From Cristatella mucedo (lineage: Eukaryota > Bryozoa > Phylactolaemata > Cristatellidae): a DNA stretch of 64,000 nt. The position numbers and the translations under genes are program-made. Location of the stretch: contig WPIO01000245.1 of NCBI GenBank assembly GCA_009760855.2, forward strand, positions 62,001 through 126,000, in the 5' to 3' direction. Shown piece by piece: positions 8,587 to 61,870 of the stretch (the first letter of the stretch is position 1; each line of letters begins with the position of its first letter). The notes under the pieces are model-generated. The model was not told the origin of the DNA. It saw only the letters and a list, made by a program, of their open reading frames with translations, and made no database searches.

Positions 8587-9445
8587 ATTTAATAATAATA
8601 ATAATAATAATAATTCACTTGATAAAGCGCCCACAGAGAACTTATTCTCTCTCTAGGCGCTTTACATTTGCTGTAAAGTGAAATGCAATTGAATGGTAAG
8701 TAAAATCATGCTTGATAAAAACAAACGAAATGAATAATATGGTTAGGGGTGACATGCACAGGGTCAGCATGCAAATGTGGTTGGTGGCAGCATGCACAGC
8801 GTCAGCACGCATAAGCACATCAAGGACGAATCACAGGGACCCACTAAATGCTGTCCTAAATAGGTGTGTTTTTAGGTTCCTTTTAAATGTGGTCAGGTCA
8901 GGGGATGTTCTGACGCAGGTCGGGAGGCAGTTCCAGGCTTTGGGAGCATATGAACTAAAAGCACGGTATCCAAAGGATTTAAGGTTTGTATGAGGTATTT
9001 CTAGACTGTTGGATTCCGAAGAGCGGGTGGTACGATGCTTAGCCTGATGGGGTAGTATATCTGACAGATAGGCTGGAGCCATAGAATGAAGAGACCTAAA
9101 AGTGAGGGACAAAACCTTAAAGTCAATCCGTAGCTTGACTGGTAGCCAGTGCAGGTCGGCGAGAAGTGGAGTAATGTGGCAACTTCGAAGCTCACGAGAG
9201 ACAAGCCTAGCTGCAGAGTTTTACACCAGCTGCAATCGCCTGATCGCACATGCTGGTAGGCCAGTAAGCAGCGAGTTGCAGAAGTCGAGACGGGATGTCA
9301 CGAATGCATGGACCAACTTGGACGTGGTATCCTTATCTAAACAAGCCCGAATTTTAGCAATGTTATGAAGCTGAAAATAGGCGGATTTGACTGTGGAGCT
9401 GATATGGTCGTCTAACGAGAGGTCGCTTTTGGAATATGACACCTA
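8587..9445 (-). mobile_element. L2-A copy, 3'-complete, 5'-truncated
   Basis: Starts on the + strand with an (AAT)n tail, then the reverse of the conserved stem-loop, the 3' UTR with its doubled 21-nt motif, and the C-terminal coding part (frames at 8831-9112 and 9221-9442). A frameshift separates the two coding pieces. Confidence 0.9.
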
Positions 9446-10469: not shown

Positions 10470-10615
10470 TGTGTTTGTATTTGTATTTGTATTTGAATAG
10501 CGTCCTAAGAGAACTTGATCTCTATTCAGCAACTTCACATTAGCCACAGGGCATGAGCCCATGACTTCGGTTGGACCTTGGTCGGGGCGAGCACCTTAAC
10601 CACTGTGCCAATATT
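10470..10615 (-). mobile_element. SINE-B copy
   Basis: The + strand shows the reversed L2-A-like tail (GAGAACTTGATCTCTATTC), then the reversed tRNA head with a B-box-like palindromic segment (GGCATGAGCCC) and GGTTAAGGTGCTCGCC on the sense strand. A (TTTGTA)n-like tail lies at 10472-10492. Confidence 0.8.
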
Positions 10616-10769: not shown

Positions 10770-12115
10770 ATCCTTCCTCATTACGGGTGATTTCAACGTT
10801 CACTTTGATAACTTATCTGACGCTTTCAGCACCGATTTTAGTGCATTGACTGACTCATTGTTTCTTGTGGCTCATGTGCATGGTCCTTCCCACATCAAAG
10901 GTCACACACTCGACCAGATATTCTCATACAACTGCACTTTGTCATCACCAATTATTACCAAATCCTGCTTATCTGCCCACATGTAGGTCTCATTCAATCT
11001 ACAGTGTGTGCCCACATCATCCTCTAAAATAACCTGTGAATCGCGAAACCTCAAGGCCCTTGACATCGATGCTGTCCATGCGAGAATATCTGCTTCACCT
11101 CTGCTGCTCAATCCTCCCTCCAATCTGTGATCATTGGTAGATAGCTTTAACACGACACTAGCTGACACGCTAGACGAGTTTGCCCCTCTGACAAAGTGCA
11201 CTGTGCGCCCCCGCCCAGACGGCCTATGGTTTACCACAGACATTAAACTAGCCAAGTCTACTAAACGAAAGCTTAAAAAAGCATACAAAAGATCAGGACT
11301 AACTGTCCGTCGACAGGCATATGAAGATTACTGTAGGTCGTACCCATCGATCCTAGCAAAGGCTAAGTCTAGTTTTTATAAAAACATTGTTGGATCACAG
11401 GTGCACAATCCAAAAATGCTGATGTCGACAATAAACCATCTCCTCAACCGTTCCCAGGTTAGCACCTTACCCGATGATCCTAATGATGATCTAGCCGATC
11501 GCTTCTCTCGATTCTTTGTGCAGGAGATAGACAAGATCAGGGAATCCATCCCTGCGATGACAAAACTACCCCTAGATATGATGTTCCCCGATTCCTGGCT
11601 GCACCTCAATGTCTACATTGAAGTGGTAACTAGTGATCTCGTCCTAAAGTTCATATCCCAATCAAAAAAGACAAAAACTCCTCTGGACCCTATACCCACT
11701 GTCCTATATATAAACAAAATATATATAACTCATTTATATAGTGCGCTAAGAGAACTTAATTTCTATTTAGGCGCTTCACATATGCCTCGGGGCTCGAGCC
11801 CACGACCTCAGTCAGACCTTGGTAGGGGCGAGCACCTTAACCGCAAGACCAAACCAGATCAGTCCTGCTCCTACGTTGCATTGACCTTCTGCTACCATGC
11901 ATAACTAACATCATTGTTACGTCATTACCTTCAGGTCATGTCCCGGCACCTTTCAAAAAGATGTAGTCAGGCCACTTCTCTAGAAAGCGACACTAGACCA
12001 AGAGAACTTGAAAAACTACCGCCAATCTTCCTTGTACCATTCCTATCAAAGACAATTGAACGAATCGTGGCGGACCAGCTGAACTCATAAATTGAAACTG
12101 AGGTTGAACCTGGTA
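10770..12115 (+). mobile_element. L2-A copy: endonuclease end, connector and RT start
   Basis: Begins near the endonuclease GDFN motif (about 10786) and runs through the connector. The open frame 11134-11904 encodes, in order, a basic region, NPKMLMSTINHLLNRS, and DLADRFSRFFVQEIDKIRES, which parallels the same region in L2-B. A SINE-B at 11706-11861 interrupts it. After the SINE the L2-A frame continues to an in-frame stop near 11964 and then decays. The 3' part is missing. Confidence 0.85.
11706..11861 (-). mobile_element. SINE-B inserted in the L2-A reading frame
   Basis: A full SINE-B in reverse. The tail side is at 11706-11760 and the B-box side holds GGGCTCGAGCCC. The head ends at 11861. 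GTCCT is duplicated on both sides (11701-11705 and 11862-11866). Taking out the SINE and one GTCCT makes the L2-A frame continuous, so these are true insertion borders. Confidence 0.9.
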
Positions 12116-12142: not shown

Positions 12143-12508
12143 TAGTAATAATAATAATAATAATGCACTTGATAAAGCACCATCAGAGAACTTAATCTCT
12201 CTCTAGGCGCTTCAAATTTGTTGCAAAGGGAAATGCAATTGAATGGTGAGTAAAATCATGCTTGATTAACAAGCAAAATGAATAACATGGTTAGGGGTGA
12301 CATGCACAGGGTCAGCATGCAAGTGTGGTTAGTGGCAGCATGCACAATGTCAGCACGCATAAGCACATGAAGGACGAACTACAGGGACCCACTACATGCT
12401 GTCCTAAATAGGTGTGCTTTAAAATTCTTTTCAAATTTGGTCAGGTCAGGGGATGTTCTGACGCTGGTCGGGAGGGAGTTCCAGGCTTTGGGAGCATACG
12501 AACTAAAG
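12143..12508 (-). mobile_element. L2-A 3' end, short copy
   Basis: (AAT)n, the reversed stem-loop, the 3' UTR with the doubled motif, and the last ~100 coding bases, then truncated. It sits tail-to-tail with the plus-strand L2-A to its left. Confidence 0.9.
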
Positions 12509-14132: not shown

Positions 14133-14290
14133 TGCTGATTTAACAGCCTCTTTTTTCTAGTGACAGAAGAGCCTTTAAGGCCATCACCACCACTTGCAGT
14201 GGCGATAAAGGATCACCTACTTCAGGATTAGAAGCCACGACATCAGGACCGAGGTCGTGAAAAGCAACCGCTATTGTGCCATCACGGCTC
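14133..14290 (-). mobile_element. SINE-A copy
   Basis: Reads in reverse: end (AACAGCCTCTTTTTTC), middle (GGCGATAAAGGATCACC), B box decayed to GGCTTCTAATCC, and head GAGCCGTGATGGC. Confidence 0.75.
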
Positions 14291-14857: not shown

Positions 14858-15512
14858 GTGCGATCAGGCGATTGCAGCTGGTGCAAAACTCTGCAGCTAG
14901 GCTTGTCTGTTGTGAGCGTCGCAGTTTCCACATTACTCCACTTCTCGCCGACCTGCACTGGTTACCAGTCAAGCAACGGATTGACTTCAAGGTTTTGTCG
15001 CTCACTTTTAGGTCTCTTCATTCTATGGCTCCAGCCTATCTTTCAGATATACTACCCCATCAGGCAAAGCATCGTACCACTCGCTTTTCGGAATCCAACA
15101 GTCTAGAAATACCTCGTACAAACCTTAAATCCTTTGGAGACCGTGCATTTGGCTCGTATGGTCCCACAGCCTGGAACTCCCTCCCGACCTGCATCAGAAC
15201 ATCCCCTGACCTGACCACATTTAAAAGAAACTTAAAAACATACCTATTTTTTAGGACAGCATTTAGTGGGTCCTTGTGATTCGTCCTCGATGTGCTTATG
15301 CGTGCTGACACTGTTCATGCTGCCACTAACTACATTTGCATGCTGACCCAGTGCATGTAACCCCTAACCATGTTATTCATTTTGTTTGTTTTTCAAGCAT
15401 GATTTTACTTACTATTCTATTGCGTATCACTTTGCAGCAAATGTAAAGCGCCTAGAAAGAGATTAAGTTCTTTGAGGGCGCTTTATCAAGTGCAATATTA
15501 TTATTATTATTA
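14858..15512 (+). mobile_element. L2-A copy, 3' end with (ATT)n tail
   Basis: 5'-truncated at the segment encoding CAIRRLQLVQNSAARLVC. The remaining C-terminal coding sequence to 15279 is nearly continuous, ending in 'TAFSGSL'. The 3' UTR, stem-loop and (ATT)n follow. One of the less decayed copies. Confidence 0.92.
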
Positions 15513-17789: not shown

Positions 17790-18563
17790 GCTAGGGAAAG
17801 CCACCAAATCGGCCTTGTTTAGATAAGGATACCACGTCCGAGTTGGTCCATGCATTCGTGACCTCCCATCTCGACTTCTGCAACTTACTGCTTACAGGCC
17901 TACTGGCATGCGCAATCAGGTGATTACAGCTGGTGCAAAACTCCGCAGCTAGGCTTGTCTGTCGTGAGCGTAAAAGTAGCCACATCATACACTTCTCGCC
18001 GGCCTGCACTGGATACCAGTCAAGCAACGGATCGACTTCAAAATTGTGTCACTTATTTTAGGTCACTTCATTCTTTGGCTCCAGCTTATCTCTCACATCT
18101 ACTCCCCCACCAGGCCAAGCATCGTTCCAGCTGCTTTTCGGAATCCAACTGTTTACCAATACCTCGTACAAACCTCAAATCCTTTGGAGACCGTGCATTA
18201 AGTTCGTATGCTCGCAAAGCCTGGAAATCACTCCCGACTTGTATAACAACATTCCCTGACTTGACCACATTTAAAAAGAACCTAAAAGCTCCAGTATTTA
18301 GGACAGCATTTAGTGGGTCCCTGTGATTGGTCCTTCATATGCTTATGCGTGCAGACACTGTGCATGCTGCCACTAACCACACTGGCATGCTGACCCTATC
18401 TATGTCACCCCTAACCATGTTATTTATGTTGTTTATCAAGCATGATATTACTCACCATTAAATTGAATTTCATTTTGCAGCAAACGTAAAGCGCCTAGGA
18501 AGAGATTGAGTTCTCTGAGGGCGCTTGTTCAAGTGCATTATTATTATTATTATTATTACTACT
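17790..18563 (+). mobile_element. L2-A copy, 3'-complete
   Basis: From the 'KIRACLDKDTTSKLVHAFVTS' region through the ORF end and 3' UTR to the stem-loop and (ATT)n at 18538-18563. Frameshifted; best frame 17955-18326. Confidence 0.9.
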
Positions 18564-21434: not shown

Positions 21435-22640
21435 AATATTAATATTAGTAATATTTACATATTTGTATAGTGCATCAAATAACCCAATCACTTTGTAGGC
21501 ACTTTATATTTGCTGTCAAGTCAACATAATTAATTGTTTTAACGGTGCATTCATGATTTCAACAGAAAATTCATACGATTTTAACAAGCGGTTAGTGGCA
21601 GCATGGACAGTGTCAGCATGAATGAGCACATAAACGACAGATTGCATGGCCCCCTTTAATAGTTGGAAATATAAGTGTTTTTGTACCTATTCTTGTTTCC
21701 ATGTCAGGGGATGTGGTAAAGTCAGTCCGAAGTGAGTTCCACGCTTTGGAAGCATTGGAACTTAAGGCACAGTCTCCAATGAATTTTAAGGTTCTTGCGA
21801 GGTTCGGACTTCTGATAGATAAGCTGGAGAAAGAGAATAAGCGATACTAAAAGTGTGTGAAAAGTTATGAAGTCCACATTCTGCTGGATTGCTCAATAGT
21901 GCTGGTCGGTAAGATGTGCTGTGATGGGGCAACTACGATGTTCATGACTGACAAGCCTTACTACAGATTTTTGCACAAACGGCGAGCACCAGATGCACAG
22001 GCCAGTATTCGAGCAAGCAGTGAGTTGCAAAAACCCACGAAGGAAAGTTAAAAATGCACGAACCATTAGACTTGTTATTCCTTTCTATGACAACCCTAAT
22101 TTTAACAATGCTATATAGCTAAAAGTAGGGAGACATGACTGTGGAGTGGATGTGATCCTCTAGTGCAAGCTAACTTTGGAACTGGACGCCGTTTTTTCGT
22201 GCACATGAAGCAGGAGACATGCTGGAAGAGCTTATTTTGAGGTTTAAGTTTTCCAATTTCCGAGTTACACTTGAATTGGTCCTGCCTGGTAAGCTATTTT
22301 TATTTTCATTCAATTTTGAAAATTTAGCTGTCACCCATTTGTGGACGTCAGATACAACACAATCTTAGCCGATTTAACGATCTCATTTATTTTGAGGCTG
22401 TAGAGCTTTTACGGCTATTGCAGCTGCCTGCAGTGGTCAATACTGGATGGACAGTTGCAGTACTTGAATCTTTGACCAGGGTTGTAAAGAGCAAGTACCC
22501 AAGCTCCTGTGCAATACTGCCCATTGCAATCAAGATAGAGCAAAACAAGTAAAGAGACTCTACCTAAGTCTGCATTCCAAAAAGGTAGCTCTAAATCCAA
22601 AGCAATGAGGACTCTGTTGATTGATTAGCTCTCAATCCTG
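21435..22640 (-). mobile_element. Old L2-A relic
   Basis: Decayed tail (AATATTAATATTAGTAAT), 3' UTR (GTTAGTGGCAGCATGGACAG) and much of the 3' coding part in reverse. A SINE-A piece sits inside at 22368-22445. Confidence 0.75.
22368..22445 (-). mobile_element. SINE-A fragment inside L2-A
   Basis: Only the 3' half is left (GAGCTTTTACGGCTATTGC, CTGCCTGCAGTGG); L2-A matches lie on both sides. Confidence 0.5.
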
Positions 22641-24820: not shown

Positions 24821-26340
24821 ATAATAATAATTAAAATAGTGTACTTGATAAAGTGCCCTCAGAGAACTTAATCTCTTTCTAGGCGTTTTACAATTGCTGC
24901 AAAGGGAAATGCAATTGAATGGTAAGTAAAATCATGCTTGATACACACAAAAAATGAATAACGTGGTTAGGGGTGACATGCACAGGGTCAGCATGCAGAT
25001 GTGGTTAGTGGCAGCATGCACTGTGTCAGCATGCATAAGCACATCAAGGACGAATCACAGGGACCCACTAAATGCTGTCCTAAATAGGTGTGTTTTTAGG
25101 TTCCTTTTAAATGTGGTTAGGTCAGGGGATGTTCTGACGCAGGTCGGGAGGCAGTTCCAGGCTTTGGGAGCATACGAACTAAATGCATGGTCTCCAAATG
25201 ATTAAAGATTTGTACGAGGTATTTGTCGACTGTTGGATTCCGAAAAGTGGGTGGTACGATGCTTGGCCTGATGGGGAGTATATCTGAGAGGTAGGCTGGA
25301 GCCATAAAATGAAGGGACCTAAAAGTGAGTGACAAAACCTTGAAGTCAATCCGTTGCTTGACTAGTAGCCAGTGCAGGTCGGCGAGAAGTGGAGCAATGT
25401 GGCAACTGCGACGCTCACGACAGACAAGCCTAGCTGCAGAGTTTTGCACCAGCTGCAATCGCCTGATTGCACATGCTGGTAGGCCAGTAAGCAGTGAGTT
25501 GCAGAAGTCGAGACGAGATGTCACGAATGCAGGGACCAACTTAGACGTGATACCGTTATCTAAACAAGCCCGAATTTTAGCAATGTTATGAAGCTGAAAA
25601 TAGGCAGATTTGACTGTGGAGCTGATATGGTCGTCTAACGAGAGGTCGCTTTGGAATATGACACCTTGATTTCGAGCTGATTCAACAGGAGATATGCTGG
25701 CAGAGCCAATTTTGAGCGTCAGCCTTTCCAATATCTGAATCACACTGCGTTTGCCCATAACTAGTAAGTTAGTTTCGTCATCGTTTAGTTTTAGAAAATT
25801 TGCTGCCATCCATGTGCAGATATCATCAATGCATGCAGCAAGTGAGTTGAGAGAATTTGAGGTGCTCGAAGGCTGGGAGGGATCAAAGCAAAGGTACGAC
25901 CGAGTGTCGTCCGCATAGAAATGAAAGCCTAGATTGTGCTTGGCAATCACATCGGCGAGAGGGAGAGTATAAACCGTGAAAAGAACCGGAGCTAGCACGG
26001 AGCCCTGAGGCACTCCATATTTCAGAGGTACTTCAGATGATCTTTGTCCATTCACGTCAACACTCTGGAGTCTCTCACTGAGATAGGACCTGAACCACTG
26101 CAGAGCAGTGCCAGTGATGCCCAGGCGAGATGAGAGGCGCTCTAGAAGAACTTTGTGATCGATGGCGTCAAAAGCTGCCGAAAGATCGAGCAAAACAAGC
26201 AGTGACACTCTACCCACGTCTGCATTCCTAAGTAGGTCGTTGTATACCCTAAGCTATGCCGACTCTGTAGAGTGATTAGCTCTAAAGCCGGACTGGAACT
26301 TACTAGCAAGGTGTGAGGTTTCGATATATGAGTTTAGTAT
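24821..26340 (-). mobile_element. Best-preserved L2-A copy, 5'-truncated
   Basis: Complete 3' end ((AAT)n, reversed stem-loop, 3' UTR with two 21-nt motif copies at 24977-24997 and 25015-25035) and 1.1 kb of near-continuous coding sequence. The 5' end is truncated upstream of the RT palm. AGTATTA occurs at both borders (24814-24820, 26336-26342), a plausible 7-bp target duplication, although the left one merges with the AT-rich tail. Confidence 0.93.
25117..26217 (-). pseudogene. L2-A reverse transcriptase, palm to C-terminus (366 codons)
   Basis: The longest intact stretch of L2-A ORF2. Motif A is LLDLSAAFDAID (residues 9-20), motif B is GVPQGSVL (68-75), and motif C is the catalytic FYADD (100-104). 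The thumb-like region has NFLKLNDDETNLLV, followed by the L2-type C-terminal domain (SRLDFCNSLLTGLP, RRLQLVQNSAARLV, LHWLLVKQRIDFKVL). The protein would copy element RNA at nicked target DNA. Endonuclease and RT finger parts are absent by truncation, and the frame shifts shortly before the C-terminus (near 25240-25270) relative to other copies, so it cannot be active. The same-family copies at 3.0 and 57.9 kb confirm the reading. Confidence 0.9.
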
Positions 26341-28082: not shown

Positions 28083-28708
28083 AATAATTATAATAATAAT
28101 ATTGCACTTGATAAAGCCCCCTCAGAGAACTTAATCTCTTTCTAGGCGCTTTACATTTGCTGCAAAGTGATACGCAATATAATAGTAAGTAAAATCATGC
28201 TTGAAAAACAAACAAAATGAATAATATGGTTAGGGGTGACATGCACAGTGTCAGCATGCCAATGTGGTTAGTGGCAGCATGCACAGTGTCAGCACGCATA
28301 ATCACTACAAGGACGAATCACAGGGACCCACTAAATGCTGTCCTAAATAGGTGTGTTTTTAAGTTTCTTTTAAATGTGGTCAGGTCAGGGGATGTTCTGA
28401 TGCAGGTCGGGAGGGAGTTCCAGGCTTTGGGAGCATACGAGCTAAATGCACGGTCTCCAGAGGATTTAAGGTTTGTACGAGGTATTTCTAGACTGTTGGA
28501 TTCCGAAAAGCGAGTGGTACGATGCTTGGCCTGATGGGGTAGTATATCTGAAAGATAGGCTGGAGCCATAGAATGAAGAGACCTAAAAGTGAGCGACAAA
28601 ACCTTGAAGTCAATCATTTGCTTGACTGGTAGCCAGTGCAGGTCGGCGAGAAGTGGAGTAATGTGGCAACTGCGACGCTCACGACAGACAAGCCTAGCTG
28701 CAGAGTTT
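28083..28708 (-). mobile_element. L2-A copy, 3'-complete
   Basis: (AAT)n, stem-loop, 3' UTR and an intact C-terminal frame of 99 codons (28318-28617, ending in 'TAFSGSL'). 5'-truncated at CTGCAGAGTTTT, which runs into a T-rich stretch. Confidence 0.93.
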
Positions 28709-29384: not shown

Positions 29385-29522
29385 AGTATAATTCATTTGT
29401 AAAGCACCCCAAGAGAACTAAATCTATATTCACGCGCTTCACATGTGCCTCAGGGCTCGAGCCCACGACTTCAGCCAGACCTTAGTCGGGGCCAGCACCT
29501 TAACCAATCGACCAACCGAGCT
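29385..29522 (-). mobile_element. SINE-B copy
   Basis: Reversed L2-A-like tail (CCAAGAGAACTAAATCTATA), B-box region GGGCTCGAGCCC, and head GGTTAAGGTGCTGGCC on the sense strand. Confidence 0.85.
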
Positions 29523-30094
29523 CAAGTAAATGTCCTAAGTCATGATGCCTGGTATGCTTTCAAGGCTTAGATGCCACAACTTCAGAAGCAACCCCAAAAG
29601 ATGACTTCTTCTCCTTCAAATTAAACCGTTGACTGCAGGAACTTGGATGAGTAGGCTCCATCGGGTCGCCGATGCAAAAAAAGCCTGCTTTTGCAGTTCG
29701 AACACAGCGTGAATTTTCTGTCGTCACCCTATACAACTTTATCTGAATAGCCAGTCAGTAGTCTAGTAGGTCCGAGTCCTAACCCGCTGTAGACGATTAA
29801 AAATGTCCTTCGCCGACAGAGGAGTGTGGATAGCACTTACTAAAGTACAAATGTTTATGCGAAAAAACTTTAGCTTACGCTATTGCATTATGGTAAAATG
29901 ACTATCGCCCATATTCAATTGAAACGACATCAAGAGTTTGATGCCGATGAGCAGACACATTTTGCTGCGTGTGCAATCAATATATCAAATAACTCGTAAA
30001 ACTATTTCATGGAAGTATCGTTTTATGTGTAGCTAGCCTCCAGTGGATACTTTAGCACCCTTTAAAGGGATTAAATAAAAATTGAGACGAATGG
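29523..30094. other. Unannotated sequence between two SINE-B copies
   Basis: No recognisable feature. Confidence 0.4.
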
Positions 30095-30250
30095 CTTTAT
30101 TATATATGATATGCAAGTCATTTTGTATAGAGACCCAAGAGAATATAGTCTCTAGTCAGGTGCTTCACACACGCCTCGGGGCTCGAGCCCACGACCTGAG
30201 CCAGACCTTGGTCGGGGCAAGCGCATTAACCACTGGACTAAACCAGCATG
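30095..30250 (-). mobile_element. SINE-B copy
   Basis: Same orientation and structure as the copy 700 bp to its left. Head sense strand reads CTGGTTTAGTCCAGTGGTTA, an A-box-like start; B box GGGCTCGAGCCC. Confidence 0.85.
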
Positions 30251-30677: not shown

Positions 30678-31000
30678 TTAATAATAATAATAATAATAAT
30701 AATGCACTTGATAAAGTGCCCTCAGAGAACGCAATCACTTTCTAGGTGCTTTACTTTTGCTGCAAAGGAAAAAGCGATTAAATGGTGATTAATATAATGC
30801 TTGATGAACAACATGAATAACATGGTTAGGGGTGACATGCCCAGGGTCAGCATGCAAGTTTGGTTAGTGCCAGCATGGACCATGTCAGCACGCATAAGCA
30901 CATGAAGGACGAATCACAGGACCAACTAAATGCTGTCCAAAATAGGTGTGTTTCTAAGTTACTTTTTAAATGTGGTCAAGTCAGGGGATGCTTGCACGTC
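30678..31000 (-). mobile_element. L2-A 3' end
   Basis: (AAT)n, reversed stem-loop, 3' UTR and the last coding bases (TGTGGTCAAGTCAGGGGATG), where a local duplication begins. Confidence 0.88.
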
Positions 31001-34661: not shown

Positions 34662-35534
34662 ACAGATAATGAGAGGTACAGCCTTTATGCTTGCCCCAAA
34701 AAAACCGTAGGCATAGCAGTACATGCACGTTAGCCACTTGCATAGTAGCTGATGGAAACGGAAAACTCAGTCATCTTAAGTACATAGACTAGATCTCTAG
34801 CCTTTGTTTCGCCACGGGGTTAGGTTGATCACTGTTGGCGAAGAAGGGCAAGGCGAATGCATTTGATTACTGAAGTCGTAAGTTTGAGCACTTAGAAATA
34901 CAAGTAGTGCCTGGATAAAGTTTATGTTATGCAAGCATGCTTTAGTAATGAATGGTATTAGTAACACTACACTTAATTCGACATGAATAATGCGAATTCA
35001 TAGAGAAACAAACATGCGCTGAACACGACGACATTGCTTGCCAATCACACCGAACCTCATATTATAACTAATCTAGGATTACTTGTAAGAGATTTTCGTG
35101 TGGTCTAGAATACGGATTTGAAAAATAGTTTCTGCCATTCAGTAAATTCAGATTTTGCTTAAAAAATTAAAACCACCGTACGGTGTCAGAGTTGTTTGGC
35201 TCGTTAACTTTAGTAATCAAAAGTTATTATTACAGTTTAAATACAAATTTGGAACCTACAGGAATCGATGAAATAAAGCCAATTATCAGTTCAAGATAGA
35301 TAAATATTACCGCAAAGCTTTGCGTACAACTTCAAAGACTGCAGGAAATCGATTTTTGCAAATTAAATTGACATTCAAACTGCAATCGTAGCCGTCACTA
35401 TTTAAAATAATAATGATACTTTCTGTGGGTGAAATAAGTCTGTCAAGGTGAAAATTGAATCCTTAAAGCAACTCGGTAAACTTTTTTATAAATAATCTGT
35501 AAGTATTTTGGGTGCCATTTTCCGATTAATTTTG
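34662..35534. other. Unannotated AT-rich sequence
   Basis: Nothing recognised on either strand. Confidence 0.4.
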
Positions 35535-35672
35535 TCTTAGCCAGCGGTTAAGGTGCTCGCTTTCGACCAAGGTCTGGCTGAGGTCGTGGGCTCGAGCCCG
35601 GAGGCATATGTGAAGCGCCTGAATAGAGATAAGTTCTCTTGGGGCGCTATACAAATAAATTATATTTTTTTA
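35535..35672 (+). mobile_element. SINE-B copy, sense orientation
   Basis: The clearest SINE-B: A-box-like TTAGCCAGCGGTTAAGGTGC, B-box region GGGCTCGAGCCC, then the L2-A-like tail GAAGCGCCTGAATAGAGATA / AGTTCTCTTGGGGCGCTATA with both stems of the hairpin intact. Confidence 0.9.
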
Positions 35673-35919
35673 TTTTAACCCTAATTTCATGTCAGCCTAC
35701 ACGTACTACTAAATCTTGTAATTGCTTTAAAGCTGCAGTTGCACCAAGTTATACTTTTGTCAGCCTTAGTAATAGTCAAAGAGGCCTTTAAAATTGTGAT
35801 AAACTGTCAAAACTAAGAAGTTAAAGAAACTTAACGGAGTCAGCCTTGATTCGGGTATAGAAATTCTTACTTAGGATTGTAGACTTACGTAGTCTTTTGC
35901 TTGTTTGGATCGATATTTC

Positions 35920-37130
35920 CGCAGCTTTTCTTTCTATCGATGCCCTAGTTCTTCTTGAGGGCCTCTAATCTCGACTGGTCAGCACTGGCACTGCACTGCA
36001 ATACTTCAGTCCTATCTCAGTGGGGCAACTCAGAATAATAATGTAAATGGACAAAAATCATCCACGGAGCCTGTGAAGTATGAATTGCCTCAGGGCTCTG
36101 TAATTGGCCCGGTTCTTTTTATGGTTAATGCCCTCCCTCTTGTCAGGTACAATCTTTTAGCTATATGCACATGAAATTCAGCTGAACCTTTGCTTAGATT
36201 CCTCACAGCCAACTTGCACATTGAATTGTCTCAGCTGCCTTGCTGAATATATGGACGACATTCACGAAATGGATGGCAGCAACTTCTGTTAAGTTGATTG
36301 GTGATAAAACCAACCCACTAGGTACGGGCAAACCAAGTATGATTAAAAAAATATAAAGGCTCTCGCTCAAAAATGGCTCTTTGAGCATGTCTCTAGTTAA
36401 ATCAGCACGAAATCTAATCATGGTCAAGTGACCTTTCATCAGACAACCACACCTGCCCCAGTCAAGTCTGCCTGCTTGCAGCAGCATAAAAGTGCCAAAA
36501 TTTGAGTTTGTTTAGATAGGGATACCGCATCTAAACTGGCCCCAGCAGTTCTGACATCTCCTCTTGACTTCTGTAACTCACTGCTTCTTTACCGGCCAGG
36601 TCAATTGGGCGCTTAAATTTTGTGCCAAACTTTACAGCAATTTTTGCCAGTCGTTAGAGTCGCAGTTGCTGAATGCACTATTTCTCGCCGATCTGCACTG
36701 GCTCAAAGTCTAGTATTTCATGGTTCCATCACTCATTTTTAGGTTCTTTATTCTTTGGCTTCAGCCTATCTATATGGTCTAGCTCCCACCAAGCTAGCCA
36801 TCATAGCACTCGCTTTTCAGAATCTAATCATTAACCTATACCTCATACGAACCGAAAATTCTCTGAAGAACGTGGATTTAGTTCGTATGCTCCCAAAGCT
36901 CGGAACTCACGTCGACTTAAGTCACAGCATCCACCAATTTTACCACACTTTAAAGAAGCTAAAGTGCATGTATTTATTGCAGTATTTAGCTGGTCCATGT
37001 GAATCAACCTTCACGTGCTTTTTATTGCTGACACCCTGCATTCTGCCGCTGTTCCTACTTGCATTCAGACTCTCTGCATGTCACACCTAACCATGTTATT
37101 CTTGTTGTCTTTGAGAAAGCTTGAGTTGAT
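35920..37130 (+). mobile_element. Old L2-A relic, RT palm to 3' UTR
   Basis: Collinear but decayed: motif A region near 35925, GCCTCAGGGCTCTGTAATTGG (motif B) near 36090, and the C-terminal coding part to about 36990. Ends in 3' UTR remnants that meet an opposite-strand tail. Confidence 0.75.
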
Positions 37131-37144
37131 TGAACAAGTTTCTT

Positions 37145-37262
37145 GTGATAATAATACTAATAATGTTATTATATTTGATAAAACACCCTTACCGAACTTG
37201 ATCTCTTTCTAGGCGCTCTACATTCCTGCAAAGGAAGCACGATAGACTTGTTAGTGGTAGCA
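37145..37262 (-). mobile_element. L2-A tail fragment
   Basis: AATAATACTAATAATG then the reversed stem-loop (CCGAACTTGATCTCTTTCTAG) and a short 3' UTR piece. Tail-to-tail with the preceding copy. Confidence 0.8.
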
Positions 37263-37984
37263 TACTCATTAAATAACTAAAATAACATGGTTATGAGATT
37301 GTAAACCACAATTGAATTCTCTGTTGGGTCAAAATCAAATCTATTATTAATCTTATTGTCATCAAAGTAATTTTAGTTGATTTAACCAACATTTATAATG
37401 AGATTGCAACATTTCTGTGACAATGTCCTGAAGTTATTCCATTTTAGAAGAAAACGAGCTGTAATGGTTACAAATCATCGTTGCTCGATCAAGTCGTGCC
37501 TCGCACAGTCGACAATTGAATGGAAGTTGACCATCATGGAAGCTTGATTATTGCGTCATACTTTCCTGTTCTTGGAAGACCAGATTTCCACGTCCGAGAG
37601 GCTGCCCTTTAATATCATAAAGATAGCTATCTACTGAGTTTAGTTATTGACAATGGAATCATGAGACCTACTACACTTTAAGTGGAGTGTCATTACACAC
37701 GTCTTGGAACTATAATAGGTATTTGCAATCGCAGAAATCGAAAAATTGACCTGATAAAAAACCCGATTATAAAATGCTATTGTAAAGCTGTAATGAAGGC
37801 TCCGGGCTGCGATCCCCGAGTGCCATTGCTTATCTCTAGTTATATAATATATATCCTTGGTAGAATAAGAGTTGTATAATGGCAAGTGTATTTGGCGACG
37901 TAGGAAGTTAACCTTTTTATAAGTATTTTGTATTTGTTACACAGAAACCACGATCGAATGGTTCGTGTTAGTTTGCTCACTATA
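37263..37984. other. Unannotated AT-rich sequence
   Basis: No feature recognised. Confidence 0.4.
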
Positions 37985-38145
37985 AATAATAATAGTAATA
38001 ATGCATTTGCCATAGAGCCTTTAGAGACTTCAATCTCTTTCTACTCATTATAAATTTCTTAAAAAGGAGCCAGATCAGAGTGGCAGCATGCTCAGTGCAC
38101 TACAAGTTCAACATGGCTAGAGGTGATATACACAGTGTCAGCACA
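37985..38145 (-). mobile_element. Old L2-A tail and 3' UTR fragment
   Basis: AATAATAATAGTAATAATGC, then a decayed stem-loop and scrambled 3' UTR matches. Confidence 0.65.
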
Positions 38146-38179
38146 CACAGGATGATTGATATGCATGTACAAGCTAAAT

Positions 38180-38690
38180 TATATAGGTCTCTTCATTCTA
38201 TGGCTCCAGCCTATCTCTCAGATCTACTCCCCCACCAAGCCAAGCATCGTAGCAACCGCTTTTCAGAATCCAACAATCTACAAATACCTCGTACAAACCT
38301 CAAATTCTTTGGAGACCATGCATTTAGTTCGTATGCTCCCAAAGCCTGGAACTCCCTCCCGACCTGCGTCTGAACATTCCCTGACCTGGCCAAATTTAAA
38401 AGAACTTAAAAACACCTATTTAGGACAGCATTTAGTGGGTCCCTGTGATTTGTCCTTGATGTGCACATGCGTGTTGACACTGTGCATGCAGTCACTAACC
38501 ACATTTGCATGCTGACCCTGTGCATGTCGCCCCTAACCATATTATTCATTTTGTTTGTTTTTCAAGCATGATTTCACTTACCATTCAATTGAATTTCCCT
38601 TTGCAGCAAATATGAAGCGCCTAGAAAGAGATTAAGTTCTCCGAGGGCGCTTTATCAAGTGCATTATTACTATTATTATTATTACAGCCA
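38180..38690 (+). mobile_element. L2-A 3' copy with tail
   Basis: C-terminal coding end (frame 38080-38373 includes SLHSMAPAYLSDLLPHQAKH), 3' UTR, a clear stem-loop at 38617-38650 and (ATT)n. Confidence 0.9.
38617..38650 (+). promoter_or_regulatory. L2-A 3'-terminal stem-loop (RT recognition candidate)
   Basis: Outer arms GCGCC (38617-38621) and GGCGC (38646-38650). Inner arms AGAGA (38627-38631) and TCTCC here, TCTCT in most copies. Loop TTAAGT. It is kept in nearly every L2-A copy and in SINE-B. Confidence 0.7.
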
Positions 38691-41996: not shown

Positions 41997-42300
41997 TAAT
42001 AATAATAATAATAATAATGCACTTGATAAAGCGCGCTCAGAGAACTTAATCTCTTTCTAGGCGCTTTACATTTGCTGCAAAGTGAAATGCAAATGAATGG
42101 TAAGTAAAATCATGCTTGAACAACAAACAAAATGAATAATACAGTTAGGGGCGAAATGCACAGGGTCAGCATGCTGATGTGGTTAGTGGCAGCATGCACA
42201 GTGTCAGCCCGCATTAGCACATAAAGGACGAATCACAGGTACCCACTAAATGCTGTCCTAAATAAGCGAGTTTTTAAGTTCCTTTTAAATGTACTGAAAG
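41997..42300 (-). mobile_element. L2-A 3' end, truncated in the 3' UTR
   Basis: (AAT)n, reversed stem-loop, 3' UTR with the doubled motif and the start of the coding end (TTAAGTTCCTTTTAAATG). Confidence 0.9.
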
Positions 42301-45439: not shown

Positions 45440-48400
45440 GTGTTAAATAGTATTTGTTGCATTAGTAGCCCACCCGCTGTAGCCCTGCACTTTGTGAAAC
45501 GTAGTCCTGCGGCCGTCACCAAGGTCCAATTCAAATTCGAAGAGCCAGCTTCCACCGGGCCGGACGTGAACGGTAGAGAATACGAGCCACTTCATCGCCG
45601 TCGCCCAGTTGTTGGACTGCCTCTTAAATTCCGCCTACTAAATGTCCGCTCGCAAAAAAACCAAGGGGTTACTTATCCGCGATCAGGTGGTCCAGGAGAA
45701 GCTAGAAGCATTTCTGCTTACCGAAACCTGGATGACGCCTTGTTCCAGCAGCTGTATTTCCGAGACCACCCCACCTGGGTTCTCATTCTATCAGTTCATG
45801 CGTTCTGAAAAGGTTGGTGGCGGGATTGCAATTGTTGTTCACGAATCGTTTGGCTATAAAATGTGCAGTTTCTCGCAATGGTCATCGTGTGAATCGGTTG
45901 TTATCAGATCTTCATCAAAGACAATGCCTCTCACCATTGTGATATACCGACCTCCTGGCTGTCTAAACTTGTTTATTGAGGAGTTTTCAGAGTTCCTCGC
46001 TAAAATATTTGTGTGACAGGCCGTTACTGATTGTAGGAGACTTCAATATTCACATTGACAACCTTAGCAACAGCCAGGTCCGATCGTTTCTTGACTGTCT
46101 GGAGAATTTTGGTTTGGCCCAACACGTTAATCATAGATCCCACGTCGGTGGCCACATTCTAGATCTCGTGATCACTAAGGATGTCCTATCCACTGACTTT
46201 TTGGTCTGCCCACTGACCCTCTCAGATCATTGTTCGGTCTCGTTTACTGTTCCTGCTCCCTCGTACGTACACGGCGATGTCGATTTGCCTAACGACGTTA
46301 CTTACAAAGCATTGACGTGGACAAATTTTTGAAATCTGTTTGTGATGCAGGTCTTCTTGATCTGCATTCAGACTCAACCGGCAGCCTCGATACCCTCACT
46401 GATACGATAAACATGACACTCAGGAGTGCTCTTGACAAGCACGCTCTCGTTCGCTCTATCCGTGTTCAAAGTCGTCGAGATTCCTTTCAATTTACAAAAA
46501 ACTCCTTAAGGTGCGCCGTGTTAAGAACAGGCTGGAACGTCGTTTCAAGAAATCTGGGTCTGAGGCAGACCTAGTCCATTTTAACGACTTCCTTCGAGTT
46601 TGCATCCGAAAGCTTAAAAAAGCCAGGGCTTCTTTTTTCATTAGAAGACTGAATTCCTGCCTGTCGGACACTAAACAGATTTATAAGACAGTAAACCATT
46701 TACTGGCCAGTGCTGTGAGGTCTGACTCGCAGGATATTAAGGGCTCAGCCGAAAAGTTTTCAGCCTTCTTTACTGAAAAAATTGTGCACATTCTTGCCTC
46801 CAGTAAGCCCCCTCCGACCAAATCAATCGCAGTTCCTCAACCTGTGACCTTTCTTAAAAGGTTCTCCGATGTTTCTGCCTGTGATGTGGCTGCCTTAATG
46901 AAGTCTAGCAAAAAGAGCTCGTCTCCTGAAGACCCTATACCTTCATCTCTGTGGTCTTCACTTGCAGACCAACTTAGCCCTGCCATAACCAAGATTTTTA
47001 ATCCTTCTTTGGGAAAAGGTGTCGTCCCTTTGTTCTTCAAATCGGCAACCGTTAGACCTATTCCTAGAAAGCCTGGATTAGACACAGAGGTCCTAGCAAA
47101 CTATCGTCCAGTTTCCCTTCTTCTGTTCTTATCAAAGATTCTTGATAAAATTGTTGCTAAGCAGCTAGTTGAACATATTGAAAATAATGGAATGTCAGAA
47201 ACATTTCAATCAGGTTTCAAGAGGCAGCACTCTACTGAAACTGCTCTCCTCCGTGTTAGCAATGACATTCTATGTGGCAACGACGACAGGAATGTCACTA
47301 CCCTAGCTCTGATAGATCTGTCTGCTGCCTTGGACACCATTGATCGTGAAGTTCTGCTTGAACGATTGAGAACAACGATCGGTCTGGCAGACGAAGCACT
47401 GGCTTGGTTTAAATCCTACTTGTCTGATCGTGTTCAATCCGTGTCGTGTGGAGGTCAGGTCTCAGACATGAGAAGGGTCACATGTGGAGTCCCTCAATAG
47501 TCTGTACTTGGTCCCTTACTGTTCTCTATTTATTTTCAACCTCTGGGAAAAGTGATGAAGGCCCATTGAATAGGATATCACTTCTGTGCTGACGATACTC
47601 GCTATACTTGTCATTTAAACCGTCGGAATCTGCTGCAGCAACTGAGAAACTGAATGCTTGCCTTGCCGATATTCGATCCTGGATGTTCGGAAAACTTTCT
47701 GAAATTAAATGACGATAAAACCAAACTGCTGCTCATAGGACACTCTAAGCGTGTGGCTGGATCTAAAGGCTTTGCTGTTCCAATAGGTGATGCTATTGTG
47801 CGACCTTCATCGCTTGCTCGCAATCTAGGTGTCGTGTTCGACAGCTGCCTCAATTTCAAAAGCTTCATTCAGAAGACTGCCTCTACAGCTAGCCATCACA
47901 TCCAATCCCTATCCAAGATTAGAAGCTGTCTCCCACAGTGGCTTGTAAAAAATGTAACTAGCTCTTTAGTTCTGTCTCGGCTTGAGTATTGTAATTCCCT
48001 TTTGGCTGGGCTACCAAAGAAAGCTATTATGCCACTACAGCAGACTAAGAATATGGCTGCAAGGCTGGTCTTCAAGTCCCAGCGATTTGAGCACGTGTCA
48101 CCTTTGCTGAGAGAGCTCGGATGGTTGCCGGTTGAGCGAAGGATACAGAGCAAAGGTCTTACGCTGACTCACAAGGCCAGCCACGGCTTGGCTCTTTCGT
48201 ACGTTGCTGAACTGCTGCATCAGTTTCAGCCTGTTCGCGCCCTCAGGTCCTGTGTGGACAATAAATTAGCTGTCCCAATCCTCCGCTTAAATCCAGTTGG
48301 TGACAGAAGCTTAAGCTCTGCTGGTCCTAGACTGTGGAACTCGCTTCCACAATTCTTATGCAACGACATCTACTCTCCGACTGCCGACTATGGCACATCT

Positions 48401-48538
48401 TATTCAGCGGTCCTGAACTGCTACTTCTATGCTACTCACTACCTCAACTGCTCTCCTGACTCTGCTATGCTTCCCACTTTCTCTTTGTTGCGTGAGACGA
48501 AGTCTGTGGGCTACCGAATGCGTACCGAAAGCCGCTAA
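45440..48538 (+). pseudogene. L2-B endonuclease-reverse transcriptase ORF, broken
   Basis: The endonuclease start KFRLLNVRSQ lies at about 45625. It continues in another frame (LLTETWMTP, catalytic Glu motif) after a shift at the A-run near 45653. GDFNIH lies at about 46039, and SDHCSV closes the domain near 46225. Further shifts occur near 46005, 46325 and 46515. The connector and RT are open at 46511-47500: DPIPSSLW, NYRPVSLL, motif A changed to SAALDTID (Phe to Leu), and GVPQ followed by a TAG in place of the next Gly codon. The catalytic box reads FCADD instead of YADD (about 47580). The C-terminal domain is intact at 47654-48538 (NFLKLNDDKTKLLLIG, LEYCNSLLAGLP, LGWLPVERR). With at least four frameshifts and one stop it is inactive. 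Confidence 0.9.
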
Positions 48539-48577
48539 GGCTGTGAGTGTGCTATACCAAACTGTCCTGCGTAACAC

Positions 48578-48602
48578 CCACATGGTCTTTATGACTTTGT
48601 GG
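48578..48602 (+). promoter_or_regulatory. L2-B 3' stem-loop (RT recognition candidate)
   Basis: CCACATGGTC and GACTTTGTGG form a 10-bp stem with one U-U mismatch and one G-U pair around the loop TTTAT. It is kept in nearly all L2-B copies just before the tail. Confidence 0.7.
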
Positions 48603-48635
48603 AGTTACTGACCGAGATACATACATACATACATT

Positions 48636-53479: not shown

Positions 53480-54015
53480 GCTCCATGCTGGTACTTCACA
53501 CGTCGCATCTTTTGAAGTTTTGTAATTTGAAAGAAAGTCTCCTCGAACATGTACATGTATAGAATGAACGGGAACATGCTTGCCAAGAGAACTATTGAGT
53601 GTCATGTTTACTGCATCAGTGAGGATAATAATAATAATAATAATATTGCACTTGATAAGCGCCCTCAGAGAACTTAATCTCTCTCTAGGCACTTTACATT
53701 TGCTGCAAAGGGAAATGCAATTGAATGGTGAGTAAAATCATGCTTGATACATCGAGGCTGTCGGTCGAGTCTGGGTGCAAATCAAAAAGCCCTGCATCAC
53801 GAACAGATTAAGAAATACTGTCTATGTCAATGCTTTCAAGTTACTTTGCTGTAAAAGTTCAGCATTATCCTGTACGTACTAGGAAGTATGAAAGCAGGAA
53901 CAGTAAACGAGACCTGCAGTGATCTAAGAGGGCCAGTGGGGACGCCACAAGATAAATGGGGAAAATATCCTTTGTGATCACAATATCTAGGAGTTTAAAA
54001 ACCTTTGGAGTAATG
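53480..54015 (-). mobile_element. L2-B endonuclease-region relic
   Basis: Matches the L2-B region after the endonuclease in reverse (CTTGCCAAGAGAACTATTGAGTG, then AACAGTAAACGAGACCTG and TTTGTGATCACAATATCTAG). It is split by a short L2-A tail at 53626-53750. Confidence 0.75.
53626..53750 (-). mobile_element. 125-bp L2-A tail inserted in L2-B
   Basis: (AAT)n, the reversed stem-loop and 3' UTR only up to AAATCATGCTTGAT. L2-B sequence continues on both sides, so this is a complete, extremely 5'-truncated insertion. Confidence 0.85.
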
Positions 54016-54337: not shown

Positions 54338-54505
54338 CTGATGCAGCAGGCTCTTTTACATAGCGACAGAAGAGCGTTTACGGCTATCACCACTGCTTGC
54401 ATCGCAATATAGGGTCGCCCACAGCAGGATTCGAACTCACGACCTGGTGACCAAGATTGTGAAAGGCAACAGCCTTACCCGGTATGCTATCAAGGCTCAT
54501 CAATT
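54338..54505 (-). mobile_element. SINE-A copy, well preserved
   Basis: Reversed end (GCAGGCTCTTTTACATAGCG), middle, and B box AGGATTCGAACTCACGACC (sense GTGAGTTCGAATCCT). The head reads GATGAGCCTTGATAGC on the sense strand. Confidence 0.85.
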
Positions 54506-55675: not shown

Positions 55676-55978
55676 CTCACAACATCCCCTGACTTGACCA
55701 CATATAGAAAAAAACACGCATCTATTTATGACAGCATCTAGTGGGTTCGTGTGATTCATTCCTTATGAGCTTTGGGTGCTGAAACTGTTGCCTGCTGCAA
55801 CTTACCAGGCTTGCATGCTGACCCTGTGCATGTCGTCTCTAACCATGTTATTCACATTGTTTATTAAGCATGATACTGCTCGCCATTCGACCGTGTATCT
55901 TTTGCAGCAAATATAAAGAGCCTAGAAAGGGATTAAGGTTCTCTGAGGGCGCTTTATCAAGTGCATTATTACTAACGT
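55676..55978 (+). mobile_element. L2-A 3' end in the intron after the CUB exon
   Basis: ACATCCCCTGACTTGACCAC (ORF end), 3' UTR, and stem-loop (CCTAGAAAGGGATTAAGG, TCTCTGAGGGCGC) to GCATTATTAC. Confidence 0.88.
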
Positions 55979-57615: not shown

Positions 57616-58470
57616 GTAATAATAATAATAATAATAATATTGCACTTCATAAAGCGCCCTCAGAGAACTGAATCTCTTTCTAGGCGCTTTACATTTGTTG
57701 CAAAGTGATATGCAATAGAAAAGTAAGTAACATTATGCTTAAAAAATAAACAAAATGAATAATATGGTTAGGGGTTACATGCACAGGGTCAGCATGCAAA
57801 TATGGTTAGTGGCAGCATGCACAGTGTCAGCATGCATAAGCACATCAAGGACGAATCACAGGGACCCACTAAATGCTGTCCTAAATAGGTGTGTTCTTAA
57901 GTTCCTTTTAAATGTGGTCAGGTCAGGGGATGTTCTGACGCAGGTCGGGAGGCAGGTCCAGGCTTTGGGAGCATATGAACTAAAAGCACGGTCTCCAAAG
58001 GATTTAAGGTTTGTACGAGGTATTTCTAGACTGTTGGATTCCGAAAAGCGAGTGGTACGATGCTTTGCCTGATGGGGTAGTATATCTGAAAGATAGGCTG
58101 GAGCCATAGAATGAAGGGACCTAAAAGTGAGGGACAAAACCTTAAAGTCAATCCGTTGCTTGACTGGTAGCCAGTGCAGGTCGGCGAGAAGTAGAGCCAT
58201 GTGGCAACTGCGACGCTCACGACAGACAAGCCTAGCTGCAGAGTTTTGCACCAGCTGCAATCGCCTGATCGCACATGCTGGTAGGCCAGTAAGCAGTGAG
58301 TTGCAGAATTCGAGACGAGATGTCACGAATGCATGGACCAGCTTGGACGTAGTGTCCTTACCTAAACAAGCCCTAATTTTAGCAATGTTATGAAGCTGAA
58401 AATAGGCAGATTTGACTGTGGAGCTGATGTGGTCGTCTAACGAGAGGTCGCTTTGGAACATGACACCTAG
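57616..58470 (-). mobile_element. L2-A copy, 3'-complete, well preserved
   Basis: (AAT)n, reversed stem-loop, 3' UTR with the doubled motif, and a 206-codon uninterrupted C-terminal frame (57856-58476) ending in 'TAFSGSL'. Truncated at the 'LGVIFQSDLS' segment. Among the youngest-looking copies. Confidence 0.95.
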
Positions 58471-58654: not shown

Positions 58655-61055
58655 TGTAATGTATCTCCGTCTGTAACTCCACAAAGTGATAAAGACCATG
58701 TGGATGTTTTCTGCAGGAGTTTTTTATAGTGCACTCACAGCCTAAGCGACTATCGGTATGCATTCGGTAGCCAACAGACTTCGTCTCACGCAAGCAAAGA
58801 GAAAGTGGGAAGCAAAGCAGAGTTAGGAGAGCAGTTGAGGTAGTGAGTAGCATAGAAGTAGCAGCTTAGGACCTCTGAAAAGGATGTGCCACAGTCGGCA
58901 GTAGAAGAGTAGTTTTCGTTGCGTAAGAATTGTGGAAGCGAGTTCCACTGTCTAGGACCTGCAGAGCTAAAGCTTCGGTCGCCAACTGTCACTAAGCGGA
59001 GGAATGGGACAGTTAATTTGTTGTCCACACAGGACCTGAGGGCGCAATCAGGCTGAAACTGATGCAGCAGTTCAGCTAGGTACGAAGGAGCCAAGCCGTT
59101 GCCGGCCTTGTGGGTCAGTGTAAGAACTTTGCTCTGTATACTTTGCTCAACCGGCAACCATCCTAGCTCTTTCAGCAAATGAGACAGGTGCTCAACCCGA
59201 TAAGACTTGAAGACTAGCCTTGCAGCCATATTCATTGTCGCCTGTAGTGGCATAATAACTTTGTTGGGCAGCCCAGCCAAAAGGAAATTACAATAATCAA
59301 GCCGAGAAAGAACTAAAGAGATAGTTAAACTTTTTACAAGCCACTGTGGGATACAGCTCCTAATCTTGGATAGGGATCGGATGTGATGGCTAGCTGTAGA
59401 GGCAGTCTTCTGAATGAAGTTTTTGAAATTGAGGTAGCTGTCGAACACGACACCTAAATTGCGAGCACTTGGTGACGGTCGCACAATAGCGTCACCAGTT
59501 AGAACAGCAAAGCCTTGTAATCCAGCCACATGCTTAGGGTGTCCAATGAGCAGCAGTCTGGTTTTATCATCATTTAGTTTCAGGAAGTTTTTCAAAATTC
59601 AGGATCGAATGTCGGCTAGGAAAGCATTCAGTTTCTCAGTTGCCCCAGTAGATTCCGACGGTTGGAATGCCAAATACAAGCCAGTATCGGCAGCAGAGAA
59701 GTGATATCCTATTCCTAGTGCCTTAATCATTGTTCTCAGTGGTTGCGTATAAATGAAGAACAGCAAGGGACCATGTACAGATCCTTAAGGGACTCTACTA
59801 GTGACCCTTCTCGTATCTGAGACCTGACTACCACACGACACGGATTGAACACGATCAGACAAGTACGATTTAAACCACACCAGTGCTTCGTCTGCCAGAC
59901 CAATCGTTGTTATCAATCATGCAAGCAGAACTTTTTGATCAATGGTGACGAATGCAGCAGATAGATCTATCAGAGCTAGGGCAGTGACATTCCTGTCGTC
60001 GTTGCCTCGTAGAACGTCTTTGTTACCAGGGAGGAGAGCAGTCTCAGTAGGATGCTGCCACTTAAACCCTGACTAAAATGTTTCTGAAATTCCATCATTT
60101 TCAATATGTTTAACCAGCTACTTAGCAATAATGTTTACAAGAATCTTTGATATGAGCTGAAGAAGAGAAACTGAGCTATAGTTTTTTAGGATATCTGTGT
60201 CTGATCCAGGCTTTTTAAGAATAGCTCTAACGATTGCCGATTTGAAGGACTTGAGGACGTTCCCTTTTCCCAAAGAAGCATTACAAATCTCGGTTATAGC
60301 AGGTCTAAGTTGGTCTGCTGGTGAGGACCACAGAGATGAAGGTAAATGGTCTTCAGGAGACGAGCTCTTTTTGCCAGACTTTATTAAGGCAGCCGCATCG
60401 TTTGCAGAAACGTCTGAGAACCATTTAAGGAAGGTCATAAGTTGAAAAACGGCGATAGCTTTGGTCATAGGGGGCTTGATGGAGGCACGAATGTGCCCAA
60501 TTTTTTCAGTAAAGAAGGCTGAAAACTTTTCGGCTGAGTCCTTAATATCTGGCGAGTCAGACCTCACAGCACTGGCCAGTAAATGGTTTACTGTCTAATA
60601 AATCTGTTTAGTGTCTGACTGGCAGGAATTCAGCTTTTTAATGAAAAAGGAAGCCCGGTTTTTTTAGGCTTTCGGATGTAAACTTGAAGGAAGTCTTTAA
60701 AATTGACTAGATTTACATCAGACCCATATTTCTTGAAACGACGTTCTAGCCTGTGGTTAACCCGGGCATCTTAAGGAGTTTTTTTGTAATTTGAAAGGAA
60801 TATTGAAGACTTTGAACACGGATTGAGCGAACGGGAGAATGCTTGTCAAGAGCATTCCTGAGTGTCGTTTTCATAGAATCAGTGAGGGTATCGTGGCAGC
60901 AGGGCGAGTCTGAATGCAGATCTAGAAGACCTGCATCACAAACAGATTTCGAAAAACTTGTCCACGTCAACGCTTTGTAAGTTATGTCGTTTGGCGAATT
61001 CGACATTTCCCTGTACGTTTGAGGGAGCAGAAACAGTAAACGAGACCGAACAACT
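58655..61055 (-). mobile_element. Large L2-B copy, 5'-truncated in the endonuclease
   Basis: The tail TAATGTAATGTAT and stem-loop lie at the left end. Going right are the C-terminal domain (open 58786-59595), a decayed RT palm, the connector (open 60118-60567, SPEDHLPSSLW) and the end of the endonuclease (60746-61006). Stops and shifts split it into at least four pieces. The match ends at GAGACCGAACAA (61055). Confidence 0.92.
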
Positions 61056-61204
61056 ATACTCTAAATATTTGCAATGTTTTAATTGAATCAAGGCCATTTT
61101 ATAAAACTTATGAAGGTTACACACACAAATAGCACCGAATTCCTAGATACTGCCATTGCACATACGCCAATGTTAGTTTATGTATCAGGTTTGAAAGTCT
61201 GAGT

Positions 61205-61764: not shown

Positions 61765-61870
61765 AACCGAGCTGGTCTGGTCTAGCGTTAAAGGTGCTCG
61801 CCCCGACCAAGGTGTGACTGAGGTCGTGGGCTCAAGCCCCGAGGCATATGTGAAGCACCTGAATAATTAT
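61765..61870 (+). mobile_element. SINE-B head, tail truncated
   Basis: Starts AACCGAGCTGGTCTGGTCTA and GCGTTAAAGGTGCTCGCC; B-box region GGGCTCAAGCCC. The tail is lost after GAAGCACCTGAATAATTAT. Confidence 0.8.

Follow-up and report, generated by a model that had tools for sequence, protein, structure and literature searches.

The short retroposon SINE-B of Cristatella mucedo was found to end in the same hairpin tail of about 60 nt as the LINE L2-A, in a form whose internal-loop letters were never seen on an L2 body by exact pattern across the assembly. We consider it probable that an L2 tail was captured once, long ago, and that SINE-B was then mobilised by the L2 lineage through this hairpin.

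Shared hairpin tail of SINE-B and L2-A

To begin with, a stretch of 64 kb (the window) was analysed with a model of the SINE-B body. The five copies named in the original prediction, at 10.5, 11.8, 29.4, 30.2 and 35.6 kb, were all recovered, and all of them carried the terminal hairpin of L2-A as had been claimed, while a sixth body was found at 61.77 kb with its tail broken off. Since the body model matched these six places and no L2 element in the window, the statement that the upstream part of SINE-B is unrelated to L2-A was upheld. The interval 35535-38690, for which the shared tail had been described, consisted of several elements rather than one (Table 1).

The first of the two tail motifs, allowing up to three mismatches, gave 24 matches in the window against 0.61 expected from dinucleotide shuffles, and the second gave 20 against 0.15. 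In particular, the first motif was exact at five L2-A places and in none of the SINE-B copies, four of which had 1 to 3 mismatches and the one at 10.5 kb more than three, while the second was exact at two L2-A places and in the SINE-B copy at 35.6 kb. Both motifs were exact within the SINE-B consensus, read from 31 copies (the best matches and one more in locus L020, with L023 and L024 being apparently one duplicated neighbourhood). The hairpin is short, which speaks for a convergent or chance likeness, but the excess of matches and the extent of the likeness, some 60 nt that take in the flanks and the unpaired apical loop, make such an origin extremely improbable.

The 3′ end of L2-A reads GCAAATGTAAAGCGCCTAGAAAGAGATTAAGTTCTCTGAGGGCGCTTTATCAAGTGCATT followed by (ATT)n, with the internal loop AGAA/GA and the flank CTTTATCAAGTG. 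No match to its tail was obtained in bacterial assemblies or viral contigs. L2-A encodes a reverse transcriptase (Pfam RVT_1, E 1.2e-15), and we take it to be an L2 element from the label given in the original prediction and its C-terminal motif. The SINE-B body, of about 84 nt, starts with GCCGAGCTGG, has GGCATA as its last letters and is directly followed by the tail TGTGAAGCGCCTGAATAGAGATTAAGTTCTCTTGGGGCGCTATACAAATGAATTATA and A/T-rich letters; this tail includes the internal loop GAAT/TG and CTATACAAATGAATTATA. The terminal repeats differ, being CAAATGAATTATA with other A/T-rich letters in SINE-B and (ATT)n in L2-A; such pairs often have the terminal repeat in common, although we do not regard this as a requirement. 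The description of the SINE-B body as tRNA-like was more weakly supported: inspection by eye showed TGGTCCAGCGG as an A box and GGCTCGAGCC as a B box, the latter with a single mismatch, but no tRNA was found in the window by ARAGORN (bacterial code), and no Rfam tRNA match at E up to 5 appeared in three loci with young SINE-B copies.

Near-consensus SINE-B copies also exist outside the window. A search for empty sites led from 53 matches to seven candidates, five of which were readable, with target-site duplications of about 0-5, 4-6, 0, 8 and 0-1 bp. By eye, the duplication was no longer than 4 bp in the nested L2-A copy and about 0-1 bp long in the nested L2-B copy. These short and variable duplications in SINE-B and the nested LINEs fit a common machinery, though they are not diagnostic of it. 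Longer and older relatives of SINE-B, with an extra stretch between the promoter boxes, were observed at L043:4628-4765, L046:4431-4560, L046:2952-3094 and L041:7902-8045.

Other elements were also present in the window. SINE-A, a second SINE family, has the head GCCGTGATGGCACACTAGGTAAGG and a different 3′ end, AAGGCTCTTCTGTCGCTATACAAAAAGAGGCTGTTTAATCAGCTAGGATTTATT; its tail gave 27 matches in the sample described below, one of which (L048:4983-5038) lacked a SINE-A body. L2-B, a second L2-like LINE, has a reverse transcriptase 39-53% identical to that of L2-A in two stretches and a 3′ tail of the type GAGATACATTACATTA, unrelated to the L2-A tail.

Table 1. Repeat elements and hairpin tails located in the 64-kb window.
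Feature	Position	Strand	Basis or remark
L2-A reverse transcriptase ORF piece, 378 aa	25120..26253	-	Pfam RVT_1 E 1.2e-15
L2-A copy, 5′-truncated	about 38122..38690	+	ORF end, 3′ UTR, hairpin tail 38606-38665, (ATT)n
L2-A hairpin tail	42016..42075	-	
L2-A hairpin tail	28101..28160	-	
L2-A hairpin tail	15437..15496	+	
L2-A hairpin tail	57639..57698	-	
L2-A hairpin tail	12162..12221	-	
L2-A hairpin tail	24838..24897	-	same copy as the 378-aa ORF piece
L2-A hairpin tail	8612..8671	-	
L2-A hairpin tail	18480..18539	+	GATTGAG loop form
L2-A hairpin tail	53644..53703	-	
L2-A hairpin tail, older	30701..30760	-	
L2-type hairpin tail, older	55907..55966	+	
Old, divergent L2 tail	21454..21513	-	end CTATACAAATATG; 3′ flank letters SINE-B-like
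Old decayed L2 ORF fragment	35849-36907		inside interval 35535-38690
L2 tail	37168-37256	-	inside interval 35535-38690
SINE-B copy	35533..35664	+	A/B-box-like motifs in body; hairpin tail 35604-35663; 3.7% non-CpG divergence from consensus
SINE-B copy	11724..11860	-	paralogous empty sites suggest 4-6 bp target-site duplication
SINE-B copy	29387..29523	-	body model and dating
SINE-B copy	30122..30247	-	body model and dating
SINE-B copy, older	10491..10613	-	body model and dating
SINE-B copy, broken tail	61767..61869	+	body model and dating; absent from the original prediction
SINE-A copy	14141-14288	-	
SINE-A copy	6859-7027	+	
SINE-A copy	54346-54495	-	
SINE-A copy	203-348	+	
SINE-A copy	61203-61298	-	
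SINE-A copy	22376-22515	-	
SINE-A copy	7302-7409	-	
L2-B	46436-48620	+	
L2-B	58657-60845	-	

Differences between the tails spare the paired arms and the apical loop

Consensus tails that differed between the two families had been named as an argument against the shared tail, and they were found to differ in part, with 49 of 60 columns agreeing and 11 not (one of them a gap). We relied on differences at the consensus level, as those between individual copies, most of which are probably dead, mainly reflect decay. Of the 11 columns, the flanks hold five and the core six; in the core, one (column 9) is at the base of the stem and the others belong to the internal loop. Moreover, both pairs of arms that had been described, GCGCC/GGCGC and AGAGA/TCTCT, were identical in the two consensus tails, and so was the apical loop of six bases. 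Within columns 10-46, all five differences sit in the six columns of the internal loop (GAAT..TG in SINE-B vs. AGAA..GA in L2-A), which has a probability of about 1.4e-5 at random, for a range of columns picked after the fold was known.

The predicted fold was alike from the outer GC stem inward in five consensus forms, including an old L2 form that was put together by eye. The predicted stem base is alike in SINE-B and this old L2 form, and differs in L2-A. Single tails folded better than their shuffles, with z values of -3.7 for L2-A and -6.0 for SINE-B. The covariance analysis proposed with the original prediction was run and yielded no more compensatory changes than shuffles (90.2% of cells paired vs. 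90.1%), while RNAalifold gave a covariation term of -0.07 with only five pairs predicted; both results weigh little in either direction, as the copies are probably mostly dead.

None of the LINEs compared matched SINE-B better than L2-A did. The majority sequence of 13 old L2 tails agreed with SINE-B in 49 of 60 columns, equal to L2-A, and was rejected as a better overall match. Furthermore, L2-B was rejected as the tail donor, since its tail is unrelated and ends in GGAGTTAC and a stretch of the type GAGATACAT, followed by CATTA- or CATA-type repeats. On the five SINE-B flank letters, the old L2 majority agreed in two and L2-A in none.

Two tail forms were not seen to mix across the genome

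The assembly (572 Mb in 688 contigs) was searched with exact patterns, which miss diverged copies. The L2 body was followed by the L2-type internal loop in 13,157 cases (6,589 and 6,568) and by the SINE-type loop in none, while the SINE body was followed by the SINE-type loop in 4,379 cases (2,199 and 2,180) and by the L2-type loop in none with a pattern anchored on GAGCCC. Reversed-pattern controls gave no matches. The pattern GGCANNTGTRAAGYGCCTAGAAAGAGATT had 176 matches and was rejected as a SINE marker, as most of the matches listed read GGCAAATGT and resemble an L2 sequence altered by a point change. Since GGCA lacks specificity for the SINE, the GAGCCC-anchored pattern was used instead.

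Tails were also classified in a sample of 323,403 bases, comprising the window, 35 loci picked by matches and 15 stretches of 10 kb each, taken at round positions on four contigs. This sample kept 152 tails, 66 with an L2 body, 48 with a SINE body (one scored as both) and 38 without a body class. The SINE-type core letters prevailed in 0 of the 66 L2-body tails (one tie) and in 46 of the 48 SINE-body tails (two ties). Those without a body class were L2-like in 31 cases and SINE-like in six, with one tie. Four of these six had an upstream B-box remnant by eye, while the other two lay beside a SINE-B piece (L026) and after a SINE-A-like end (L049).

Genome-wide, 28 SINE-B tails lacked the usual preceding GGC, and all were inspected with checks aimed at L2-type bodies, by which none proved to follow an L2 3′ end of its own. 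A SINE body was present in 18, L061 was a SINE with a deletion, L081 was a SINE-B with two tandem tails, as template slippage might leave, and L063 and L064 had a LINE between body and tail. The last two were rejected as template-jump chimeras: within the 5 kb upstream, the SINE-B body was found beyond the LINE, and they are therefore 5′-truncated copies of L2-B and L2-A, respectively, nested in SINE-B. Together with L074 and L075, respectively, they place L2-B and L2-A insertions near the same SINE-B place, the body/tail joint GGCA/TATGTG, which is no evidence of a hot spot because the search pattern favours that place.

The remaining six tails (L055, L056, L058, L060, L065 and L077) had no SINE body directly upstream. 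No L2 end adjoined them within the upstream sequence inspected, which was about 2.3 kb for four of them, 266 nt for L065 and 139 nt for L077; an L2 piece near L058 was on the other strand and more than 900 nt off. The tails of L056 and L065 were preceded by SINE-A sequence, and the letters adjoining those of L055, L058, L060 and L077 did not recur across 344 kb sampled. The TGTG start of the body-less tails was rejected as a unit boundary, the search pattern admitting breaks only there.

These results bear on whether SINE-B was driven by another L2 relative with the exact SINE-B loop, now extinct or rare, L2-A having never mobilised it. In favour of such a driver, SINE-B is fixed for the SINE-type loop letters, which exact patterns did not locate on L2 bodies, and two zebrafish L2-clade LINEs are described as strict about their own tails (PMC4176376). 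On the other hand, no LINE of this kind appeared among the 28 exceptions or the 66 sampled L2-body tails, although exact patterns and L2-type checks could miss one that is diverged, low in copy number or not an L2. We regard this explanation as rather unlikely.

Ages of the copies and history of the tail

In 214 kb, consisting of the window and the 15 stretches, divergence ranged from 3.7 to 21.5% in SINE-B (median 14.7%, 17 copies) and from 3.2 to 28.1% in L2 (median 14.8%, 47 copies). The SINE-B ages fall inside the L2 range, in a comparison where the window is non-random, the consensuses are author-built and the older L2 values include subfamily differences. This, along with the same hairpin on both bodies genome-wide, supports the borrowing of a LINE tail that had been put forward. 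When the window was set aside, divergence in the 15 stretches began at 9.8% for SINE-B (n=11) and at 3.9% for L2 (n=24), so SINE-B may have slowed before L2.

Dating by the 3′ UTR was possible for 31 L2 tails. In these, the SINE-like letters of the flanks increased with age (rho 0.68, P-value of 2.7e-5), while those of the core showed no trend (rho 0.08, P-value of 0.66). The flank trend may partly be decay away from L2-A, for which the core letters serve as a control, and it points to an old capture of the tail. Moreover, the SINE-B flanks GCATATGT and CTATACAAATG resemble older L2 copies more than L2-A. Given these older-looking flanks and a SINE-type loop that was not found on an L2 body, the tail most likely came from an older L2 element of the same lineage. 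The tail letters alone leave the direction of transfer unfixed and would also allow L2 to have acquired its tail from the SINE, but the tail is already present in L2 copies of very great age, whose 3′ UTR has diverged by up to 28%, and we hold this reverse transfer to be very unlikely.

In the apical loop (alignment columns 27-31), GATTAAG appeared mostly in the youngest L2-A copies, GATTGAG often in older ones and GATTCAG or GATTTAG in some of the oldest. Nearly all young SINE-B copies had GATTAAG, while older SINE copies were mixed.

Discussion

Pairs of SINEs and L2 elements with hairpin tails are well established (PMC4176376, PMC3747384, PMC2653535), and SINE-B and L2-A form an ordinary partnership of this kind, in which the separation of the tail forms is unusually clean. 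A common hairpin tail is the usual sign of a SINE that borrows the copying enzyme of a LINE. In the zebrafish elements ZfL2-1 and ZfL2-2, which belong to the L2 clade, a 3′ hairpin is essential; they recognize the loop in their respective tails specifically and, as their authors propose, the stem generally (PMC4176376). In carps, HAmo SINE and HAmoL2, a tRNA-derived SINE and a LINE2, likewise share a hairpin tail (~42 bp); however, as described there, their tails are far closer, with a single differing base in about 42 compared to 11 of 60 columns here, the loop is GGAUA vs. the predicted UUAAGU, and both elements end in TAAATG repeats, whereas the terminal repeats of SINE-B and L2-A differ (PMC2653535). 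UnaSINE1 and UnaL2 of eel resemble our pair in the hairpin tail and in a LINE of the L2 clade, to which L2-A is putatively assigned; UnaL2 ends in TGTAA repeats, and SINE-tailed transcripts were mobilised in cell assays (as cited in PMC4176376, PMC3747384, PMC2653535). Outside vertebrates, tRNA-type SINEs with an L2 tail, likened here by their description, are SINE2-8_SP with L2-1_SP in sea urchin and Nve-Nin-DC-SINE-1 with L2-22_NV in sea anemone (PMC3747384). V-SINEs have a conserved central V domain; in SINE-B, the tail directly follows a body of only about 84 nt.

SINE-B would be a non-autonomous retroposon that owes its last ~60 nt to the 3′ end of an L2-type LINE. The donor would have been an older L2 element of this lineage with an end of about GCATATGTRAAG...CTATACAAATG, whose tail passed to a short body of the pol III type, probably in a template jump. 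As seen in the pattern of tails, the two forms then diverged, with exchange never seen, SINE-B having the older-looking flanks and GAAT/TG, and L2-A having AGAA/GA, CTTTATCAAGTG and (ATT)n. The reverse transcriptase of the then-active L2 lineage, most likely L2-A or a close relative, would bind the hairpin in SINE-B RNA and start target-primed reverse transcription. The enzyme would read the two shared pairs of arms, GCGCC/GGCGC and AGAGA/UCUCU, together with the apical loop, which is identical in both tails, and would tolerate the differing internal loop and flanks. The borrowed tail in the original prediction is supported, while its claim that the L2-A enzyme itself mobilised SINE-B through the hairpin is no more than plausible; the internal-loop letters of SINE-B were not found on an L2 body. 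A further, tentative idea, which we think doubtful, is that the internal loop acts as a private mark: in thousands of copies, SINE and LINE differ in its letters while sharing the rest of the hairpin, and no exchange was seen.

If L2-A moves both elements, they provide a natural experiment that separates the enzyme's requirements (arms and apical loop) from what it ignores; alternatively, the SINE may keep a variant with which it can compete against the RNA of the LINE itself. If L2-A does not move both, a second L2 specificity would be hidden in this genome. The contrast counted genome-wide, of two tail forms not seen to mix in which the internal loop and flanks vary while the arms and apical loop are constant, yields a sharp prediction of the tail parts that an L2-type enzyme recognizes, independently of the zebrafish and eel assays.
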